A stretch of DNA of 55,675 nt from an uncultured Acidimicrobiales bacterium (lineage in GTDB: Bacteria > Actinomycetota > Acidimicrobiia > Acidimicrobiales > AC-14): assembly GCA_902805665.1 (NCBI GenBank), contig CADCTB010000143.1:1-55675 (forward strand), written 5' to 3'. The notes beneath the pieces were generated by a model that saw nothing but the letters and a program-made list of their open reading frames with translations, was not told where the DNA came from and ran no database searches. Numbering within the stretch: the stretch's first letter is position 1; every line of letters starts with the position of its first letter. Of the stretch, positions 1,549-9,654 are shown in pieces. A program made the position numbers and the translations under genes.

Positions 1549-1596
1549 TTGCACAGGACCGTTCTCGTAGTACGTTATCTACGTGACTACGCAGAT
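1549..1596 (+). promoter_or_regulatory. Promoter and operator of the arsR-CDF pair (leaderless)
   Basis: A -35-like TTGCAC (1549-1554) and a -10-like TACGTT (1571-1576) are 16 bp apart; the expected transcription start falls on the GTG at 1583, giving a leaderless mRNA. A perfect CGTAG-N8-CTACG inverted repeat (1566-1570/1579-1583) covers the -10, and a second imperfect repeat, ATCTACG...CGCAGAT (1577-1596), runs into the coding region. Either could be the autoregulatory ArsR operator. Confidence 0.55.
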
Positions 1597-1915
1597 AGAT
1601 GAGCCGACGGACGCGCAGGTCGCGACCGCCGTCGACACCTTGAAGCTGCTGGCCGACCCGACCCGGCTGCGCATCCTGTGGGCCCTGCTCCACGGGGAGC
1701 ATTCGGTCGGCCCCCTGGCCGAGCACGTCGGCGCCCCCGCCCCCGCTGTTTCTCAGCACCTGGCCAAGTTGCGGCTGGCCCGTCTCGTGCAGACCCGCCG
1801 GGACGGCAACCGCATCTTCTACCTGGCCGACGACGACCATGTCCGCCGGCTCGTCGAGGAGGCTCTTTTCCATGCCGATGGCGTCGTGCAGGGCCGCGAG
1901 GGGAGCTTCGCGTGA
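1583..1915 (+). CDS. ArsR/SmtB-family metal-responsive repressor (CzrA-like)
   Basis: 110 aa, GTG start. The winged helix-turn-helix spans about 18-80 ('LADPTRLRILWALL', recognition helix 'APAVSQHLAKLRLA'). There is no Cys metal box of the arsenic type. The alpha-5 helix carries D84-x-H86-x10-H97-x-D99, which matches the zinc/cobalt site of CzrA/SmtB (D-x-H-x10-H-x2-H/E) except that the last ligand is shifted or replaced. It should dimerise and leave DNA on binding Zn or Co. Its stop overlaps the GTG of the CDF efflux gene (GTGA, 1912-1915), the classic sensor-pump pair. It is probably autoregulated through the repeats at its own start. Confidence 0.88.
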   Translation: MTTQIDEPTDAQVATAVDTLKLLADPTRLRILWALLHGEHSVGPLAEHVGAPAPAVSQHLAKLRLARLVQTRRDGNRIFYLADDDHVRRLVEEALFHADGVVQGREGSFA

Positions 1916-2985
1916 GCGCCGACGACGTCCACGACCACGACCACGACCACGACCATGACCATGACCATGACCATGACCACGAGCATCAGGGCGGTCTGCG
2001 GGGTGCACTGAAGGGGCTCTTCGCCCCCCACAGCCACGACGCCGCCGACTCGGTGGACAGCGCACTCGAGGCCAGCCGCGACGGCATGCGCGCCCTCAAG
2101 ATCTCCCTCGTCGGCTTGGCAGTCACCGCCGCGTTGCAGGTCGTCGTCGTCCTCATCAGCGGCTCGGTCGCCCTGCTGGCCGACACGGTGCACAACTTCG
2201 CCGACGCCCTGACCGCGGTCCCACTCGCTATCGCATTCTGGATCGGCCGACGCCCGCCCAACAAGCGCTACACCTACGGCTACGGACGGGCCGAGGACCT
2301 GGCGGGCATCTTCATCGTGGCCATGATCGCCCTGTCTGCGGTCGTCGCCGCCTGGGAGGCCGTGCACCGCCTGCTCGACCCTCAGGACGTGCGAAACGTC
2401 GGCTGGGTCATCGCGGCAGGCGTGATCGGCTTCCTCGGGAACGAGCTGGTTGCCGTGTACCGCATCCGGGTCGGTCGCCGGATCGGTTCCGCTGCGCTCG
2501 TGGCCGACGGGCTCCACGCCCGGACCGACGGCGTGACCTCCCTGGGTGTGGTGGCCGGTGGCCTGGGGGTCGCCGCCGGGTGGGAGCTCGCCGACCCCAT
2601 CGTCGGGCTGGTGATCACGGTCGCCATCCTGTTCGTCCTGAAAGGCGCCGCCCGCGACATCTACCGCCGGCTCATGGACAGCGTCGACCCGGAGCTGGTC
2701 GACGCCGTCGAAGACCTGCTGGCGGGCGTGCCCGGCATCGAGGCAGTCGAGCGGGTCAGCATCAGGTGGGTGGGTCACGAGTTGCGGGCGGAGGCCGATG
2801 TCGTGTCCGACAGCCGCCTCACAGTGGCCGAGAGCCACCGCATCGCAGAGGAGGCCCACCACCAGTTGTTGCACGGCATCCCGAAGCTGGCTCGCGCCAC
2901 CATCCACACCAACCCGTGCGGACACGACGGCCTTGATCACCACCTCGTCACCAGTCACCACTTCACCCGGAACAAAGGGGCCTGA
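1912..2985 (+). CDS. Cation diffusion facilitator (CDF) metal efflux protein with His/Asp-repeat N-terminus
   Basis: Predicted 357 aa from GTG 1912, overlapping the arsR stop by 3 nt. CDF proteins export Zn, Co or Cd from the cytoplasm in exchange for protons. Residues 7-25 are an unbroken (His-Asp)8-His-Glu-His tract, a likely metal-buffering tail. Six transmembrane helices follow, with the transport-site motif H94-N-F-A-D98 in TM2 and H-A-R-T-D in TM5; HxxxD in both helices is the pattern of zinc-selective members. The C-terminal part ('VPGIEAVERV...') is the cytoplasmic ferredoxin-like dimerisation domain and ends in a His-rich tail ('CGHDGLDHHLVTSHHF'). Regulation by the upstream CzrA-like protein is inferred. 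Confidence 0.9.
   Translation: MSADDVHDHDHDHDHDHDHDHDHEHQGGLRGALKGLFAPHSHDAADSVDSALEASRDGMRALKISLVGLAVTAALQVVVVLISGSVALLADTVHNFADALTAVPLAIAFWIGRRPPNKRYTYGYGRAEDLAGIFIVAMIALSAVVAAWEAVHRLLDPQDVRNVGWVIAAGVIGFLGNELVAVYRIRVGRRIGSAALVADGLHARTDGVTSLGVVAGGLGVAAGWELADPIVGLVITVAILFVLKGAARDIYRRLMDSVDPELVDAVEDLLAGVPGIEAVERVSIRWVGHELRAEADVVSDSRLTVAESHRIAEEAHHQLLHGIPKLARATIHTNPCGHDGLDHHLVTSHHFTRNKGA
1931..1984 (+). repeat. Hexanucleotide repeat encoding the His-Asp tract
   Basis: Consecutive GACCAC and GACCAT units (eight Asp-His pairs followed by Glu-His) form an in-frame hexanucleotide microsatellite inside the CDF gene. Length change by slippage would add or remove His-Asp pairs without shifting the frame. 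Confidence 0.85.
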
Positions 2986-3010
2986 AGCCGCTTGAAGACC
3001 ACATCACCGT

Positions 3011-3040
3011 CCGCCCGGCACCCGCTAGGGTGCCGGGCGG
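3011..3040 (+). terminator. Strong hairpin between the CDF gene and the binding-protein gene
   Basis: CCGCCCGGCACCC (3011-3023) and GGGTGCCGGGCGG (3028-3040) form a perfect 13 bp stem with a GCTA loop. No T-run follows. It probably ends CDF transcription or protects its 3' end. It argues against starting the next gene at TTG 2992, since translation would run through the stem. Confidence 0.7.
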
Positions 3041-4677
3041 TGTCGCGACTCCGTACTAGCCATCCCCTTCCGGCGCTGAGAACCCTCGTCGTCCTCCTGC
3101 TCCTCACCGCCCTCGTCGCCGCCGGATGCTCGAGCGGCGGCGACGACTCCGAGGTCACCACTGACGAGCCTGCCGAAGCCCGAGCGAACGCCCAGGACCT
3201 CCGCGTCGCGGTGGGAGAGGATCCGTTCATGGCCGGCAACCCGCCGGTGTCCGACATCGGCATCCGCACCGTCGGCCCCAACCCCGGGATCTTCGAGACG
3301 CTCACCCGCCTGAGCCCCACCTACGGCGTCGAGGCGGCTCTCGCTGTCCGATGGGAAGCACCGTCGCCCAAGGTGTGGCGGTTCTTCCTCCGCCGCAACG
3401 TCTCCTTCCACAACGGCACCCCCTTCAACGCCGAGGCCGTCGTCGCCGCCATCGAGAGCTTCTCCACCCGCCAGACCCGTCCTCGGGGCCTCGACGCGGG
3501 CACGGCCAAGGCCACGGCCGACGACGTGGTGGAGATCAACCTGACCACGGACAACGCCCGCCTCGCCGAGCAACTGGCCAACCCCAACATGGCCATCGTG
3601 GCGCCCGGGACGCGGCCCGGTGCGGGCGACTCGCCCGAGACCACTCCCATCGGCACGGGGCCGTTCACCTTCGTCTCCTACGCCAAGGGCACCGACCTCA
3701 AGATGGCGGCCAACGAGAAGTACTGGGACGGATCGCCTGAGGTGCGGTCGCTGACGTTCCGGTTCGGCCCGGAGCGCGACGCCAGCCGGCTGCTGGCCAC
3801 CCGCCAGGTGGAGATCGCCGGCATGGTCGCCTACGCCAACCTGGCCTCGGTGTCGGGCCGCACCGACAAGAACGTGCAGTCCCGGCCGGGCCAGGCCGTC
3901 TACCTCCTCCTCAACAACGGCGGCATCGACGAGTGGACCACGCTCAAGGACGAGAACGTCCGCAAGGCCGTGGCCCACACCATCGACCGCAACGAGGTCA
4001 CCAAGGCCGCCTGGGACGGCCACGGTGAGGACAGCACCACCCTCATCCCCGAGATCGTCCTCGGGGCCGATGCCGCCGACCGCGTGCGGCCCCTGCCCCT
4101 GAACCGCACCGAGGCCAAGAAGATCCTCGACGGCGCGGGCTACCAACCGAGCCTTCCCAACGGCATGCGGGCCAAGGACGGCAGGCCCCTGGTTCTGAAC
4201 CTCCTGCTGTCCCGCCCTTCGGACCAGGCCAAGGCGGGCGAGGCGCTCAAGGCCCAGCTGGCTGAGGTGGGGATAGGCATGCAGGTCCAGGATCCGGGCA
4301 CCGAGACGCCCTTCACCAAGGTGAACAACGCCACCTTCGACCTGTTCCTCGACGTGCGGGCTCAGGACGACGCCAACCCCTGCGCCCTGTGCCGGTTCTT
4401 CACCATCCGCCCGGGTGGTCAGCTCAGCTTCTCGGGGTCGGTCGGCGGCGGCCCGAAGGTCGACGACGCCTACGACCGCATCTTTGCGTCGCCCTCGATC
4501 GACACCGCCCGGCGCACGGCGGCCGACATCATGCAGGTGGTCACCGCCGAGCGCTTCACCGCCGTCTCCATCGCCTCGCTGCGCACGCAATGGCTGATCT
4601 CGCCGCGGGTCCGGGGATTCGACCCGGCGGTGCTCACCGGCGACCAACGCTGGGACACCGTCTTCCTTACCGTGTGA
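3040..4677 (+). CDS. Extracellular solute-binding lipoprotein, family 5 (peptide/nickel type)
   Basis: Predicted 545 aa from GTG 3040, at the foot of the hairpin; TTG 2992 is an alternative. A lipoprotein signal peptide ('LVVLLLLTALVAAGC') ends at a lipidated Cys. The mature protein has family 5 hallmarks: 'IFETLTRLSPTYGVEAALA', 'WRFFLRRNVSFHNGTPFNAE', 'GTGPFTFVSY', and late-domain pieces 'VRKAVAHTIDR' and 'AKKILDGAGY'. Such proteins deliver oligopeptides, nickel or sugars to an ABC importer, but no permease or ATPase gene is adjacent, so it is an orphan or works with a distant transporter. Its TGA overlaps the GTG of the next gene (GTGA), suggesting coupled translation with the beta-propeller protein. 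Confidence 0.85.
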   Translation: MSRLRTSHPLPALRTLVVLLLLTALVAAGCSSGGDDSEVTTDEPAEARANAQDLRVAVGEDPFMAGNPPVSDIGIRTVGPNPGIFETLTRLSPTYGVEAALAVRWEAPSPKVWRFFLRRNVSFHNGTPFNAEAVVAAIESFSTRQTRPRGLDAGTAKATADDVVEINLTTDNARLAEQLANPNMAIVAPGTRPGAGDSPETTPIGTGPFTFVSYAKGTDLKMAANEKYWDGSPEVRSLTFRFGPERDASRLLATRQVEIAGMVAYANLASVSGRTDKNVQSRPGQAVYLLLNNGGIDEWTTLKDENVRKAVAHTIDRNEVTKAAWDGHGEDSTTLIPEIVLGADAADRVRPLPLNRTEAKKILDGAGYQPSLPNGMRAKDGRPLVLNLLLSRPSDQAKAGEALKAQLAEVGIGMQVQDPGTETPFTKVNNATFDLFLDVRAQDDANPCALCRFFTIRPGGQLSFSGSVGGGPKVDDAYDRIFASPSIDTARRTAADIMQVVTAERFTAVSIASLRTQWLISPRVRGFDPAVLTGDQRWDTVFLTV

Positions 4678-6158
4678 TCCGCTGGAGCAGGCTCATCGGC
4701 GCAGGCGTGGCGGTCCTGGGTCTGGTCCTGCTCGTCCTCGGCTTTCAGTCGGGACCCGCGCAGCTCCGGCCGGGCGCCACCGACTTCGTCAACGCCGACC
4801 GGCCCGGGATCAACGCCCACAACTCCCCGTCGGTGGCCGTCGACCCCGCGTCTCCCGCCGTCATCGCCCTGGCCGACCGGATCGACACGCCGCGCTTCTC
4901 CTGCTCGGTGTCCCTGTCCACCACGGGAGGCGCCAGCTGGAAGCCCCTCGCCCTCCCGCTGCCGGTCGATGCCCCGAACTGCCACCAGCCCGACGTCGCC
5001 TACACCTCGGCCAACCACCTGGTCGTGCTCTTCACGGCCACCGGCGGGCGGTTCAACCAGCCCGTCGGCGTCTGGTTGCAGCGCTTCGAGGGCGAGACGC
5101 CGATGGGACCGGCTGTCCCGGTGGCGCCCGCCGAGGCCTTCCACGCCCGCATGGCCGTCGACGGATCCCGGGTGTGGGTCACGTGGGTCCAGGCTGAGGG
5201 GGCGGCCGAGAAGCCCCTGGGGTTCGGGGCGACCCCCGCTCCGGTGCGCATGGCCCGGTCGGTCGACGCGGGCGCCACGTTCTCCCCCCCGGTGACCGTG
5301 AGCGAAGGGCGCCGGGCGATCCAGCCTTCACCCGTCCTCCTGGGTGGCGAGCGGGTCGTGGTCGGTGGGCTCGACCTCGCCGGCGACGTCACCAACTACG
5401 AGGCCCGCCACAACGGCCAGGGCGGCCCGCCGCCCGAGGACCGCTGGCGGGTGCTGACGTGGACGTCGACCGACGGCGGCGTCACCTTCGGGCCACCCGT
5501 CACCGTGGCCGGCGACCTGGCCGCGCCGAACCGCATCATCGTCAACCTCGCCCCTGCGCCGAGCTTCGCCGCCGATCCCAGCCGTGACGGGCGGTTGTAC
5601 GCGGCCTGGGACGCCGGCCAGGGCGACCGGCGTGACGTCTTCCTGGCCCGCTCGGACGACGCAGGGGCCACCTGGTCGGAGCCCCTGGCGGTGGCCTCCC
5701 GGCCGAGGGGACAGTTCCTCCCTGCGGTCGGCGTGTCGCCCGCCGGTCGGGTCGACGTGGTGTTCTACGACCGCAGCGGCGACCCCGACGACGTGCGGGC
5801 CCAGGTCACCATGGCGTCCTCGGCCGACGCCGGCCGCACGTTCCGCACCGCCACCGTCTCCGACGCCCCGTTCGACACCCGGATCGGCTTCGGGAGCCTG
5901 CAGGGGCTCCCGGTCCTGGGCAGCCGGCTCGCCGTCCTGGCCGAGGCCGACCGGTCCCTGGCCTTCTGGTCCGACACCAGCCGGGGGACGATCGACACCA
6001 ACGTCCAGGACCTGGCCGCGGTCAGCGTCGACGTGGAGGAGGCCGGCCGCCGCCGGCCGGCACTGATGGTGCCGGGTGCGCTACTTCTGGGGCTGGGCGG
6101 CGGGCTGGCTGTCGTCGCCCGCCTCCGACCACGTGACGGTGGACCACAGCAGGCCTAG
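4674..6158 (+). CDS. Asp-box (BNR/sialidase-like) beta-propeller membrane protein, copy 1
   Basis: Predicted 494 aa from GTG 4674, overlapping the upstream stop. An N-terminal signal or anchor helix ('GAGVAVLGLVLLVLGF') is followed by an extracellular domain with repeated Asp-box motifs (S-x-D-x-G-x-T-F/W type): STTGGASW, SVDAGATF, STDGGVTF, SDDAGATW and SADAGRTF. A C-terminal membrane helix ('MVPGALLLGLGGGLAVVARL') and short tail end it. Asp boxes mark sialidase-like six-bladed propellers, but I see no convincing sialidase Arg triad, so it may be structural or ligand-binding. A paralogue with the same layout lies at 8050-9588 on the other strand. Its 3' end overlaps a convergent gene by 78 nt. 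Confidence 0.8.
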   Translation: MIRWSRLIGAGVAVLGLVLLVLGFQSGPAQLRPGATDFVNADRPGINAHNSPSVAVDPASPAVIALADRIDTPRFSCSVSLSTTGGASWKPLALPLPVDAPNCHQPDVAYTSANHLVVLFTATGGRFNQPVGVWLQRFEGETPMGPAVPVAPAEAFHARMAVDGSRVWVTWVQAEGAAEKPLGFGATPAPVRMARSVDAGATFSPPVTVSEGRRAIQPSPVLLGGERVVVGGLDLAGDVTNYEARHNGQGGPPPEDRWRVLTWTSTDGGVTFGPPVTVAGDLAAPNRIIVNLAPAPSFAADPSRDGRLYAAWDAGQGDRRDVFLARSDDAGATWSEPLAVASRPRGQFLPAVGVSPAGRVDVVFYDRSGDPDDVRAQVTMASSADAGRTFRTATVSDAPFDTRIGFGSLQGLPVLGSRLAVLAEADRSLAFWSDTSRGTIDTNVQDLAAVSVDVEEAGRRRPALMVPGALLLGLGGGLAVVARLRPRDGGPQQA

Positions 6159-6548
6159 CCCGAACACGGCCAGCGCCGAGGCCGTGTGGTAGACGGTGCC
6201 GGGCCATGGCGCCTCGTCGCGCGTGGCCTGGGCCACGAGAGGGAGGTGGGTGGCCAGCATCCACATGCCGGCCAGCAGCACGGTCATGCCGGCTATCAAC
6301 CGGAGGGCCCCGGGGCCCTGCGGCCGGCGCCCGGCCAGGATGCCGACGATCGCGGCCAGCAGGACCACCACCGCCGGAAGGACGTGGGACGCGAACTCCG
6401 CGTCAGCTGAGGTGTTGAGCGCCGGGCCGCTGTACTTGGGCAGTGACGCCCAGAGTGCGACCCCGACGCCCACGACAGGCAGCATCTTGGCCAGGTCGGG
6501 CCCCGGCGCCGGGGTGGCGGCGACCGGCGCCGGCTTGCTCTTCGCCAT
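6081..6548 (-). CDS. Small polytopic membrane protein (unknown function)
   Basis: 155 aa, ATG start directly after the TAA of the seleno-ATPase gene (zero gap), so it is the last gene of that operon. A short Lys/Pro/Ala-rich N-terminus precedes about four hydrophobic segments: 'MLPVVGVGVALWASL', 'HVLPAVVVLLAAIVGILAG', 'LIAGMTVLLAGMWMLATHL' and 'ALAVFGLGLLWSTVTW'. No family was recognised. Tight coupling suggests it works at the membrane with the two ATPases and the propeller protein. The 3' end overlaps the convergent propeller gene by 78 nt. Confidence 0.7.
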   Translation of the reverse strand: MAKSKPAPVAATPAPGPDLAKMLPVVGVGVALWASLPKYSGPALNTSADAEFASHVLPAVVVLLAAIVGILAGRRPQGPGALRLIAGMTVLLAGMWMLATHLPLVAQATRDEAPWPGTVYHTASALAVFGLGLLWSTVTWSEAGDDSQPAAQPQK

Positions 6549-7289
6549 TTAGTTGGGGCTGGGCATGAGGGTGGAGGCCAGGCCGATGAGGGCCCGCACC
6601 GCCGGCGCGTCGGGGTCGAGGTCGATCGGGGCGACACCCTTGCGGTCGGCTTCCACGATCTTGGGGTCGTGGGGGACGCCGACGACCTCCATGCCCGGGA
6701 AGGCCGCCTTGACCGTCTCGAGATCCTCGTCGTGACGGATGCGGTTGGCGACCACCACGATGCGGGCCACGGTGCGCTCGGCGGCCAGGGCCGCAGCCCG
6801 GGCGCCGACCTCGAGTGACTTGGGAGTGGCCTCGACGACGATCACGACAGTGTCGACGTGCTCCTCGCCCAGGCGGGTGAGGGTGCCGACGCCGGCCTCG
6901 AAGTCGGCGACGACGACATCTTCTTCAGGGAACTCAACGGAGCCGAGCAACTGCTCGGGCGACAAGCCACATCAGAGTCAGCCAGGTTCCGGATTGTCGA
7001 TCCGGCTCACCACCGCCAGTCGCACACCGTCGGGCCCGTCGGAGCCGTAGCGGCTGATCAGGGTGTCCCAGTTGTTGGCGTGCTCCTCTTCGCCCTCGTC
7101 GAGGGCCTGGCGCATGGAGACCAGGCGCTCGGTCTCCTCGTCGCCCACGCCCAGGGAGATACCGAGGTTGGGGTTCGAGTCGCAGTCGAGCGCGACCACG
7201 GCCGTCCCGTTGCGCGCCAGTGTGCGGGCGATGACCGACGAGGTCGTCGTCTTGCCCGACCCGCCCTTGCCTACGACTGCGAGTTTCAT
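6549..7289 (-). CDS. CooC/ArsA-like P-loop ATPase, predicted selenoprotein with Sec-Leu-Sec-Cys motif
   Basis: One reading frame from ATG 7289 to TAA 6549, 246 residues if both internal UGAs are decoded. Codon 104 (6980-6978) and codon 106 (6974-6972) are TGA, giving G-U-L-U-C-G-L-S at 103-110. Before them lie the deviant Walker A GKGGSGKT (7-14), 'ALDCDSNPNLG' and 'DGVRLAVVSRIDNPEPG'; after them 'SPEQLLGSV', the switch II/Walker B 'VADFEAG' (128-133) and 'VVVEATPKSLEVG', as in SIMIBI ATPases that insert nickel or move oxyanions. In CooC-type proteins this place holds a Cys-x-Cys metal motif at the dimer interface; as I recall, actinobacterial relatives read C-x-C-C. A SECIS-like hairpin follows at 6958-6943. 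The start overlaps the upstream ATPase stop (ATGA). A pseudogene with two nonsense mutations is the alternative, but nothing else in the frame is damaged. Confidence 0.82.
6943..6958 (-). promoter_or_regulatory. Predicted bacterial SECIS hairpin in the ATPase mRNA
   Basis: On the coding strand CCGAGC pairs with GCTCGG (6 bp) around an AGTT loop. The loop starts 20 nt after the second UGA and 26 nt after the first, leaving 19 and 25 nt between. G and U at loop positions 2-3 match the GU contacted by SelB in bacterial SECIS elements. The rhodanese gene has the same spacing and the same GU. Confidence 0.75.
6972..6980 (-). other. Two in-frame UGA codons (UGA-CUC-UGA) predicted to encode selenocysteine
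   Basis: Minus-strand codons TGA (6980-6978), CTC, TGA (6974-6972), TGT interrupt an otherwise continuous ATPase frame at the expected C-x-C-C position. Both lie within normal reach of the one downstream hairpin. Confidence 0.78.
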
Positions 7290-8053
7290 GCAACCCTCTC
7301 TTCGCTCAGGCGTTCCACCAGCGATTCTACTGCTCGAACCGCCGGAGAGGCGGGGGCAAAGTCGAGAGGCGCCAGCTGGCGGCGTTCGGCCTCGGCCAGG
7401 TCCTCGTCCCACGGCACCGAAGCGATGACGTCGAGCCCGGTCCCCTTGGCGATCATCTCCACGTCGTCCGGCTCACGGACCTTGCTGGCCACCACCATGA
7501 CCCGCTTGGGGTTCTCGGGGTCGAGGTCGGCCATGCGGGCCAGGCGCCGGCCCGACAGCAGGGACTTGGCCGTGGGCTCCACCACGATCAGGATCGTGCT
7601 GGCCCAGCTCCCCCAGCCGGTGAAGGCCTGCCTGGTGCCGCCGGGCAGGTCGCCGACCACGTTCCACCGTCCTTCGGGGAGCTTGTTGATGATGAAGCGG
7701 AAGGCCATCTGCGACCGCCACAGGTTCTTGGGGTCGCCCATGATCTTGCCGAACTGCAGGAACCGGACGCCGTCGGGTGCTTCCACCGACCACTTCTCGA
7801 CCGCCTCGAAGGGGTCGACGTCGGGGTTCAGCCGCCAGCGGGGGCCCTCCTCGCCCTCCTTGCGCTCGATCACCGCGTCGTCCGGGATGGGCGGGGTGCG
7901 GTCGATGGCCAGGCCGAGGGAATAGGCAAGGCCGGGGAGCGGGTCGGAGTCGATGGCCAGGACCTTGTGGTCCTGGCGGGCGAGCTGCCGGGCGAAGGTG
8001 CCGGAGATCGCGGACTTCCCGGCCCCTCCCTTGCCCACGAATGCCAGTCTCAT
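7286..8053 (-). CDS. CooC/ParA-like P-loop ATPase (partner paralogue, no Cys/Sec motif)
   Basis: 255 aa, ATG start overlapping the upstream propeller stop (ATGA); its own TGA overlaps the ATG of the seleno-ATPase. The N-terminus MRLAFVGKGGAGKS holds the deviant Walker A with signature Lys. 'LAIDSDPLPGLAYSLG' and 'VVGDLPGGT' correspond to the switch regions, and 'VVEPTAKSLLSG' plus 'VMVVASKVREPDD' match the same strands in its neighbour. The segment where the neighbour has its U-L-U-C motif instead reads 'GKIMGDPKNLW', without Cys. The two are therefore clear paralogues, one metal-site-bearing and one not. They could form a heterodimer or act in turn; this is inference. Confidence 0.85.
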   Translation of the reverse strand: MRLAFVGKGGAGKSAISGTFARQLARQDHKVLAIDSDPLPGLAYSLGLAIDRTPPIPDDAVIERKEGEEGPRWRLNPDVDPFEAVEKWSVEAPDGVRFLQFGKIMGDPKNLWRSQMAFRFIINKLPEGRWNVVGDLPGGTRQAFTGWGSWASTILIVVEPTAKSLLSGRRLARMADLDPENPKRVMVVASKVREPDDVEMIAKGTGLDVIASVPWDEDLAEAERRQLAPLDFAPASPAVRAVESLVERLSEERVA

Positions 8054-9588
8054 GAGGAAACCACCTGTCTGTTCTGGGCGTCGATCGGGGTGGAGGCGCC
8101 GCCGCGGTTGCGCCGGGAGAGGGCCAGGACGAAGAAGGCGCCGCCGAGCAGGACCGCCAGCCCGGCGCCGAGGACGAGCGGGCGCCCGCTGGTGCCGGGG
8201 AGGTCGACCGGGGCGAAGTTCACGTCCTGGCGACCGGTGTTCACGTTCCCTGCGCTGGTGTCGACCCACGCGGCGAAGAGCTTGCCGTCGCCGTGGGCCA
8301 GGCCCAGCTTGGTGCCGAGGTCGGTGCCGTATTCATCGCCGAAGGTGGGACCGATGGCCTCTTCGAAGGACCGCACCGAGAGGCGGACGTTGTCGAAGGT
8401 CTTGCCACCGTCGGTGGAGGTGGCCAGGTAGGCGTCGAGCAGCTCCTTCTTCTCCGGGTCGTTGCGCCCGTCGAGGAAAAGGATGCTCACCCGGTTGCCG
8501 GGGCCCACGTCGACCTTGGGCAGGAACTGGGCGGTGCCGTCGGCCCCGTTGTCGTTGACCTTGACCGGCTTGGTCCAGCTGGAGCCACCGTCGGACGAGC
8601 TGCGCAGGAACACGTCGTCGTCGCCGTCGCGCCCGTCGGCCCACGTGGCGTACAGCTTCCCGTCGGACGACGCCGCCAGCTGGGGCAGCTCGGGCAGGAA
8701 CGGCAGGAAGCGCCGGGTGGCGAGGATGTCGCTCTCGAACTCCGTCCCGGGGGCGAAGGTCTTCCCCCCGTCGGTGGAGCGGGTGAGGACCAGGGCGAAC
8801 GGGTTCTCGGCCGGCGGTCCCGGCTGGTTCTCGAAGTCACGCCGGTTGCCCTTGAGATCCTGGTACATGACCACCAGGTGGCCGTCGTCGTCGACCAGGG
8901 GACTTGGGGCGACCACCCGCTCCCGCTGGGCGTCGCTGACCCGGACCGGGGGCGAGAAGGTGCGCCCGCCGTCGTCGCTGCGGGCGGTGACGATCTGCGG
9001 CGGCCGGCCGGAGAACCGCAACAGGCCCACCTCGTCGGCCTGCAGCCAGGTGGCGTACACCGGGCCCTTGGGGTCGACCGTCACCCGGGGCATGAAGGTC
9101 AGGGCTCCGGCGATCCGGGTGGGGAGCGAGAGGGTCCTGCCACCGTCGGTGGAGGTGGAGATCCAGAGGTTGTCGGGCCGGTTGCCGTTCCCGACCAGGT
9201 TCACGTAGGTCACGTACAGCGTGCCGTCGGGCGCGAAGGCCAGGTCGGGGGCGAAGGGGCACGGCTCGTTCTGGGAGGCCGTGCAGCCGGTGATGCCGGG
9301 GGGCAGGGGTAGGACGGTCTGCTCCCAGCTCTCGCCGCCGTTGTAGCTGTAGGCCAGCAGGGCGGAGTACCCGGGCCGGTCCTTGCGGTAGCTGACGACG
9401 ACATTCCCCTTGCGGGCCGGGTTGTAGGCGACGGTCGGGGAGTTGGAGACGTCGATGAACCCCTCACGGTTGACGAGGATGTTCCCGTTGACCTCGATGC
9501 TGCCGGGCGCCGTGAGGGCCAGGCCGACGCCGACCATCGCGGCCAAGCCGACGACCGCAGCGACAACGGCGAGCACGGTCCGCCTCAC
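8050..9588 (-). CDS. Asp-box beta-propeller membrane protein, copy 2; first gene of the ATPase operon
   Basis: Predicted 512 aa from GTG 9588. An N-terminal anchor or signal ('TVLAVVAAVVGLAAMVGVGLAL') precedes an extracellular propeller with at least six Asp boxes: NGGESW, STDGGRTL, SDDGGRTF, STDGGKTF, SSDGGSSW and STDGGKTF. A C-terminal helix ('PLVLGAGLAVLLGGAFFVLAL') and a short cytoplasmic tail end the protein. Sequence around the boxes is close to copy 1 at 4674-6158, and both end with the same anchor layout. Its stop overlaps the ATG of the first ATPase, so the four genes 9588-6081 form one coupled operon. Enzymatic activity is not evident. Confidence 0.82.
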   Translation of the reverse strand: MRRTVLAVVAAVVGLAAMVGVGLALTAPGSIEVNGNILVNREGFIDVSNSPTVAYNPARKGNVVVSYRKDRPGYSALLAYSYNGGESWEQTVLPLPPGITGCTASQNEPCPFAPDLAFAPDGTLYVTYVNLVGNGNRPDNLWISTSTDGGRTLSLPTRIAGALTFMPRVTVDPKGPVYATWLQADEVGLLRFSGRPPQIVTARSDDGGRTFSPPVRVSDAQRERVVAPSPLVDDDGHLVVMYQDLKGNRRDFENQPGPPAENPFALVLTRSTDGGKTFAPGTEFESDILATRRFLPFLPELPQLAASSDGKLYATWADGRDGDDDVFLRSSSDGGSSWTKPVKVNDNGADGTAQFLPKVDVGPGNRVSILFLDGRNDPEKKELLDAYLATSTDGGKTFDNVRLSVRSFEEAIGPTFGDEYGTDLGTKLGLAHGDGKLFAAWVDTSAGNVNTGRQDVNFAPVDLPGTSGRPLVLGAGLAVLLGGAFFVLALSRRNRGGASTPIDAQNRQVVSS

Positions 9589-9654
9589 GGGTTTCGATGC
9601 TAGCTGTCGCGGAGCCGTCAATAGTCCGCCTGCCGTCGATAGTGTGGCGCCACC
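9589..9654. promoter_or_regulatory. Divergent promoter region between the propeller operon and the DJ-1 gene
   Basis: 66 bp. Leftward, a -10-like TAGCAT (9602-9597) lies 8 nt before GTG 9588; a TTGACG (9621-9616) upstream is too close (about 13 bp) to be its ideal -35. Rightward, TAGTGT (9640-9645) lies 9 nt before GTG 9655. Both transcripts would be leaderless or nearly so. No clear operator was seen. Confidence 0.4.

Follow-up and report, generated by a model that had tools for sequence, protein, structure and literature searches.

A CooC-like ATPase with a predicted Sec-x-Sec-Cys metal site in an uncultured Acidimicrobiales bacterium

Genes and features at the locus

We analysed a 55,675-nucleotide stretch of DNA from an uncultured Acidimicrobiales bacterium (hereafter the window); it makes up contig C143 of the draft genome (G000, 3.5 Mb). 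The gene under study starts with an ATG at 7289, ends with a TAA at 6549-6551 and comprises 246 codons, with only two interruptions, both TGA (Table 1). The codon after the second TGA is TGT, encoding Cys107. With TGA read as U, the translation runs MKLAVVGKGGSGKTT...NPEPGULUCGLSPEQLLG...SPN, followed by the TAA. The original prediction, made from the sequence alone, had described a single frame carrying two TGA codons separated by one codon and otherwise undamaged, and this held for the minus-strand frame; the place that it called the junction of the two ATPase halves is the CxC metal-site loop. The plus strand of 6549-7289 does not encode the gene.

Table 1. Features of the window around the predicted selenoprotein gene
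Feature	Position	Strand	Remarks
ArsR/SmtB-type metalloregulator	1583..1915	+	Over NCBIfam cut-off; metal context, no functional link shown
CDF cation efflux transporter, His/Asp-rich N-terminus	1936..2985	+	Over cut-off; neighbouring metal context
SBP_bac_5 solute-binding protein	2992..4677	+	Nearest models are nickel ABC transporter NikA types, below cut-offs
Small membrane protein, family unknown	6081..6548	-	Directly downstream in operon
CooC-like deviant-Walker-A ATPase, predicted selenoprotein, 246 aa	6549..7289	-	Motif PEPG-U104-L-U106-C107-G
Bacterial SECIS-like hairpin, CCCGAGC-AGUU-GCUCGGC	6942..6959	-	After second UGA
UGA codon 106, read as second Sec	6972..6974	-	Aligned with CooC1 Cys114; UAG in Blastococcus saxobsidens
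UGA codon 104, read as first Sec	6978..6980	-	Aligned with CooC1 Cys112; Cys in all-Cys orthologues
Partner ATPase B, paralogue without CxC motif	7286..8053	-	Stop overlaps selenoprotein start (ATGA)
BNR-repeat (beta-propeller) secreted/membrane protein	8050..9640	-	Operon head; start uncertain; overlaps B ATPase start

Because the start of the selenoprotein gene overlaps the stop of B and the downstream gene begins immediately behind its stop, we regard these genes as a tight operon, in the order BNR-repeat protein, CxC-less ATPase B, selenoprotein and small membrane protein. At almost every orthologous locus, B and the selenoprotein gene are direct neighbours. The small membrane protein had no match in Pfam or NCBIfam and is also conserved at five other loci (L063, L067, L112, L113 and L115), while the SBP_bac_5 protein stays near the ATPase pair at L063, L112 and L058/L137. 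Two BNR-repeat beta-propeller proteins (8050-9640 and 4700-6158 of the window) flank the ATPase pair in the window's genus, and in the related genome G225 one such protein, of unknown role, adjoins a hydrogenase-linked ATPase (L056).

Protein family and fold

The ATPase matched CbiA in Pfam, and its closest sequence in the PDB was CooC1, at 2e-17 with the single sequence and 5e-61 with the family profile; the profile match to NifH was about 1e-11, although the NifH ligand columns were not compared in detail. The AlphaFold2 model (pLDDT 90, pTM 0.90) matched structures of the MinD, CooC1 and NifH type. A MinD-type ATPase of about 250 aa with a deviant Walker A motif, as expected of CooC, was present, and the CxC site occurred as U-x-U in the same columns, with Cys112-x-Cys114 of CooC1 aligned on U104-L-U106. 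Sequence profile and predicted model thus place the protein in the CooC/MinD (SIMIBI) ATPase superfamily. Membership of the HypB, MinD, ArsA or BchL families was rejected, all NCBIfam matches lying far below cut-off. In CooC1, the dimer interface binds Zn or Ni through Cys112 and Cys114 from both monomers, with one Ni per dimer, and ATP binding is proposed to release the Ni (PMC6006190). The original prediction had stated that the CooC-family Cys-x-Cys binds nickel or zinc at the dimer interface, which is correct for CooC1.

Conservation of the UGA codons and interchange with cysteine

Both TGA codons recurred in independent genomes from the window's genus and family (G225, 95% identical; G296/L112; G299; G300), indicating that they are neither chance events nor sequencing errors. 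Among named relatives that carry the gene, the closest is 'Acidimicrobiia bacterium nzgw82' (L112). Between the window and G225, codons 108-246 comprised 99 identical codons, 36 synonymous differences and 4 non-synonymous differences, which indicates purifying selection on the stretch after the TGAs.

Homologue searches yielded 42 distinct orthologous motif stretches. The second position carried a Sec codon in 30 of the 42; 21 of these also had UGA at the first position, and 9 had Cys there. The remaining 12 orthologues were all-Cys. Sec-containing motifs took the forms ULUC, UPUC, UAUC, UTUC, CLUC, CPUC, CAUC and CQUC, and all-Cys motifs included CPCC, CQCC, CMCC and CSCC; Pseudonocardia nigra DSM 104088 has the CPUC form. 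Cys stood at exactly the UGA columns in G247 (GCPCCG), L120 (GCPCCG) and CooC1 (QCYCR), and the third Cys (C107) was constant across orthologues. Parsimony on the protein tree required at least six Sec/Cys changes at position 1 and at least five at position 2.

A SECIS-like hairpin after the second UGA

The stretch GAGCAGTTGCTC (GAG CAG TTG CTC) after the second Sec codon was unchanged in 30/30 Sec forms and in only 1/12 all-Cys forms (Fisher p = 2.8e-9); among the Leu codons of these ATPase genes, 6.5% are TTG. It forms the apical hairpin GAGC-AGUU-GCUC, beyond which the outer pairs covary (CCC/GGG, GCU/AGC, GCC/GGC). The covariation score was 0.210 compared with 0.101 for shuffled alignments, none of 500 shuffles reaching it, and 96.6% of cells were paired compared with 19-48% in slid versions. 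The apical loop begins 19 nt after the second UGA; such a spacing falls in the usual range of bacterial SECIS elements. The window's own copy has 6 pairs, as its outermost pair does not form. Single-sequence folding was only moderately better than that of shuffles, and the minimum-energy fold in Blastococcus differs from the proposed hairpin. That one hairpin serves both UGAs is inferred.

Among the all-Cys orthologues, only that of G247 (L055:5423-6148) has retained the GAGCAGTTGCTC hairpin. This genome gave no tRNA-Sec match and its SelD lacks a UGA, so the hairpin is probably a relic of a recent Sec-to-Cys conversion. Sec paralogues of other clades carry a different covarying hairpin.

Selenocysteine machinery and a UAG variant

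The window's genome encodes a tRNA-Sec with anticodon TCA (65 bits, cut-off 47), as well as SelA (405 bits), SelB (262 bits) and SelD; the SelD gene itself contains one in-frame TGA. Just downstream of selA-selB lie a Nik/Dpp-type solute-binding protein and permease (L071:8089-10537, on contig C62). Two draft MAGs carrying UGA forms (G321 and G397) yielded no tRNA-Sec.

At the second Sec codon, Blastococcus saxobsidens DSM 44509 has TAG instead of TGA (L125:8316-8318), and its tRNA-Sec has the anticodon CTA (CUA), indicating that the ATPase codon tracks the tRNA for Sec rather than any stop codon in itself. The use of UAG for Sec with a CUA tRNA-Sec has been reported in Geodermatophilaceae, where the UAG selenoproteins named are FDH, UGSC and AhpC only (PMC5330540).

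The original prediction held that both UGAs replace the metal-site Cys residues with Sec (U104-L-U106-C107), to be checked by Cys at these columns in homologues, by a Sec machinery in the genome and by the same UGAs in relatives. All three checks were passed, and relatives showed no unrelated damage. It is therefore very likely that SelB and tRNA-Sec read the UGAs at 104 and 106 as Sec, a single SECIS hairpin following shortly after codon 106. This support is comparative; there are no proteomic, 75Se or biochemical data. A softer or more reactive metal or redox site, also proposed there, is still an inference.

Sec paralogues and wider spread

The window's genome holds a second Sec paralogue (C221:504-1226, L050), found also in G225 (L052). 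Its motif is PG-U-GG; the same CAG TTG CTC stretch is present and the x-Cys part of the motif is deleted, leaving a single Sec without a partner ligand. A third Sec paralogue clade (G000:C190:1632-2387, L060; G225, L057; G138, L059) has U-T-G, the second Cys being replaced by Gly, and for this reason it cannot form the CooC-type four-ligand site; its role is perhaps redox. Outside the window's orthologous group, U-x-C CooC-like ATPases were seen at L140 and L161 (SAR324 MAGs), L166 (a Verrucomicrobia MAG), L139 and L129 (Siliceabacter), and those of L139, L140 and L161 adjoin [NiFe]-hydrogenase or hyp genes. As U-x-C forms occur outside the group and in other phyla, Sec use in the CooC-like superfamily is wider than the window's group.

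Candidate clients of the ATPase

CO dehydrogenase (Ni-CODH) is an improbable client here, being absent from the genome and its close relatives. Among 16 genomes with CooC-like genes, CooS (Ni-CODH) occurred in 9/9 with classical all-Cys CooC hits and in 0/7 with the studied ATPase group; no TIGR01702 match was found in G000, G225, G138, G223, G257, G247 or G058. A CODH client was therefore rejected for this group.

About half of the sampled orthologues adjoin [NiFe]-hydrogenase and/or hyp genes. ATPase pairs lie inside [NiFe]-hydrogenase clusters that also encode HypC, HypD, HypE or HypF at L055, L058/L137, L061, L118-L126 (Blastococcus at L125), L132 and L184, and orthologues in hydrogenase clusters span Acidimicrobiia, Pseudonocardiaceae, Geodermatophilaceae, Nocardioidaceae and Thermoleophilia. 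A conserved protein of about 130 aa (...LYWREEILQVMFW..., cluster cl1), without a Pfam or NCBIfam match, recurs beside hydrogenase-linked ATPases (L055:3835-4221, L058:4606-4998 and others), as does a PadR-type regulator.

HypB over cut-off was missing from 6/7 genomes of the ATPase group and from 29/42 others. HypA gave no match in 16/23 genomes, and clear HypA matches adjoin HypB. Both proteins do exist in some genomes of the ATPase group; in G225, a hydrogenase served by them was sought around the HypA/HypB operon and not found. A scan of the hydrogenase clusters for HypA/HypB, with a crude pattern only, found nothing. The ATPase selenoprotein itself did not match the hypB family model TIGR00073. 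From the shared clusters and the missing HypA/HypB, that is, from neighbourhood and co-absence only, we infer that the ATPases deliver nickel to hydrogenase. A MinD-type stand-in for HypB has precedent, since an archaeal HypB that hydrolyses ATP (Mrp/MinD type) is known (Sasaki 2013, cited in PMC12134894).

The window's genome has no HypA and no HypB over cut-off, and its hydrogenase, with HypC/D and a CxC paralogue, lies on contig C179. In the window's family, the ATPase pair adjoins BNR, NikA-like, CDF and ArsR/SmtB genes, away from the hydrogenase cluster. These neighbours still suggest metal handling, and the client there is left open.

Comparison with known systems

The protein resembles CooC1 of Carboxydothermus hydrogenoformans (3KJE-3KJI) in superfamily, length, deviant Walker A motif (GKGGxGKTT) and the columns of its CxC/UxU site. 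It differs in having two Sec and one Cys in place of two Cys, a CxC-less partner gene, and a context of [NiFe]-hydrogenase or metal-transport genes, the seven tested genomes of its group being without CooS. With HypB it would share the proposed job of NTP-driven nickel delivery to [NiFe] hydrogenase, but it falls outside TIGR00073, carries Sec at the metal site and occurs in examined clusters without HypA and HypB. The COG0523 G3E GTPases with CxCC and the CobW-related selenoprotein (NF041053), of which a Sec form (UxxC) is known, are also P-loop NTPase metallochaperones with a CxCC-type motif, and U-L-U-C reads like CxCC; there, however, the enzyme is a G3E GTPase and not a deviant Walker A MinD/CooC protein, and the motif lies at a different position. 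The NifH/BchL Fe proteins share the SIMIBI fold and chalcogen ligands at the dimer interface, whereas the sequence match is far weaker. As in known bacterial selenoprotein families (PMC13188914), a UGA with a downstream SECIS and SelABCD is present, and Sec replaces a conserved Cys.

Proposed mechanism and alternative explanations

Our main reading is that the protein acts as a metallochaperone powered by ATP, that its cargo is probably nickel, bound by selenolates at the dimer interface, and that it stands in for HypA/HypB. We give this inferred mechanism a probability of roughly 0.6; there is no biochemistry. The ATPase would dimerise as CooC1 does, bringing together the Sec-x-Sec-Cys loops of the two subunits, whose selenolates and thiolates would bind a single soft metal ion, most likely Ni(II). 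Nucleotide binding and hydrolysis would open the metal site and release the metal. The ancestral client would most likely be the [NiFe] hydrogenase encoded in the same clusters, and the UxU/CxC member, the CxC-less partner B (whose role is likewise inferred) and further CxC paralogues would together replace the missing HypA/HypB. In the window's family, the pair would have left the hydrogenase cluster, with the hydrogenase still encoded elsewhere in the genome. Nickel has not been shown, the hydrogenase link rests on neighbourhood, and the U-x-G and single-Sec paralogues cannot form the same four-ligand site.

Two alternatives concern the decoding, and both are all but excluded. If the UGAs were ordinary stops, the gene would be a pseudogene or an artefact of assembly, or would deliberately encode only an N-terminal product; in favour of this, UGA is a normal stop in this genome and ends the B gene. 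Against it stand the purifying selection downstream, the recurrence of these codons in orthologues (two Sec codons in 21, one in 9), the exact interchange with Cys, the UAG with a CUA tRNA-Sec in Blastococcus and the covarying SECIS. Alternatively, a suppressor tRNA might insert Trp, Arg, Gly or Cys at UGA. Nothing was found in favour of this; the column holds only Cys or Sec, elsewhere UGA still means stop, a complete Sec machinery is encoded, and the UAG switch in Blastococcus tracks the tRNA-Sec anticodon.

The other two alternatives accept Sec and assign another function, and we consider both unlikely. The protein could be a Sec-based redox or electron-transfer ATPase resembling NifH/BchL, working through a Sec/Cys-ligated cluster or a reversible selenenylsulfide without carrying nickel. 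In its favour, selenoproteins are mostly redox enzymes, nitrogenase Fe proteins are also among the matches to the fold, and some paralogues keep one Sec after losing the second ligand (UTG, UG), which suits redox better than metal binding. However, the profile is far closer to CooC1 than to NifH, neither CooS nor a nitrogenase-like partner was seen among the gene's neighbours, and metal-related and hydrogenase-maturation genes adjoin many orthologues. The protein could also serve metal, metalloid or selenium homeostasis (through export, detoxification or delivery of selenium) and, in the window's family, have nothing to do with hydrogenase. This reading draws on the ArsR/SmtB regulator, CDF exporter and NikA-like binding protein nearby and on the location of the hydrogenase cluster on another contig. 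Yet orthologues in all five of the lineages listed above sit in hydrogenase clusters, and the ArsR and CDF neighbours are noted in the window, their conservation beside orthologues being unchecked.

Beyond the metallochaperone reading lies a bolder one, on which we would not wager either way: in Actinomycetota of soil and groundwater and in other phyla, a whole set of MinD/CooC-type ATPases, several of which are selenoproteins, has taken over from HypA/HypB the insertion of nickel into a [NiFe] hydrogenase. The nickel carrier would be a Sec-x-Sec-Cys site (up to four selenolates per dimer), and its two Sec, two codons apart, would both be under one SECIS hairpin.

Novelty and significance

The original prediction knew of no described selenoprotein in this family, which agrees with the sources consulted. 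The 2026 inventory of 119 prokaryotic selenoprotein families (PMC13188914) lists no CooC/MinD/ParA-type ATPase and no UxUC motif; its nearest entry is the CobW-related UxxC selenoprotein, the only other P-loop metallochaperone selenoprotein there. NCBIfam release 20 has no model for the ATPase selenoprotein, and no CooC or MinD selenoprotein was found in the literature searched, which was open-access only. To our knowledge, no selenoprotein family has previously been described among the CooC/MinD ATPases, nor any Sec-x-Sec-Cys site.

The Sec codons 104 and 106, one codon apart and with a single hairpin, offer a test case for SelB with closely spaced UGAs. The natural U.U, C.U and C.C forms within one orthologous group are a ready-made test of the contribution of selenium to the metal site. 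Because standard annotation reads these genes as truncated or split, this part of hydrogenase maturation would be missed. For [NiFe] hydrogenases in lineages without HypA/HypB, the finding points to a route of nickel delivery that has so far gone unrecognised.
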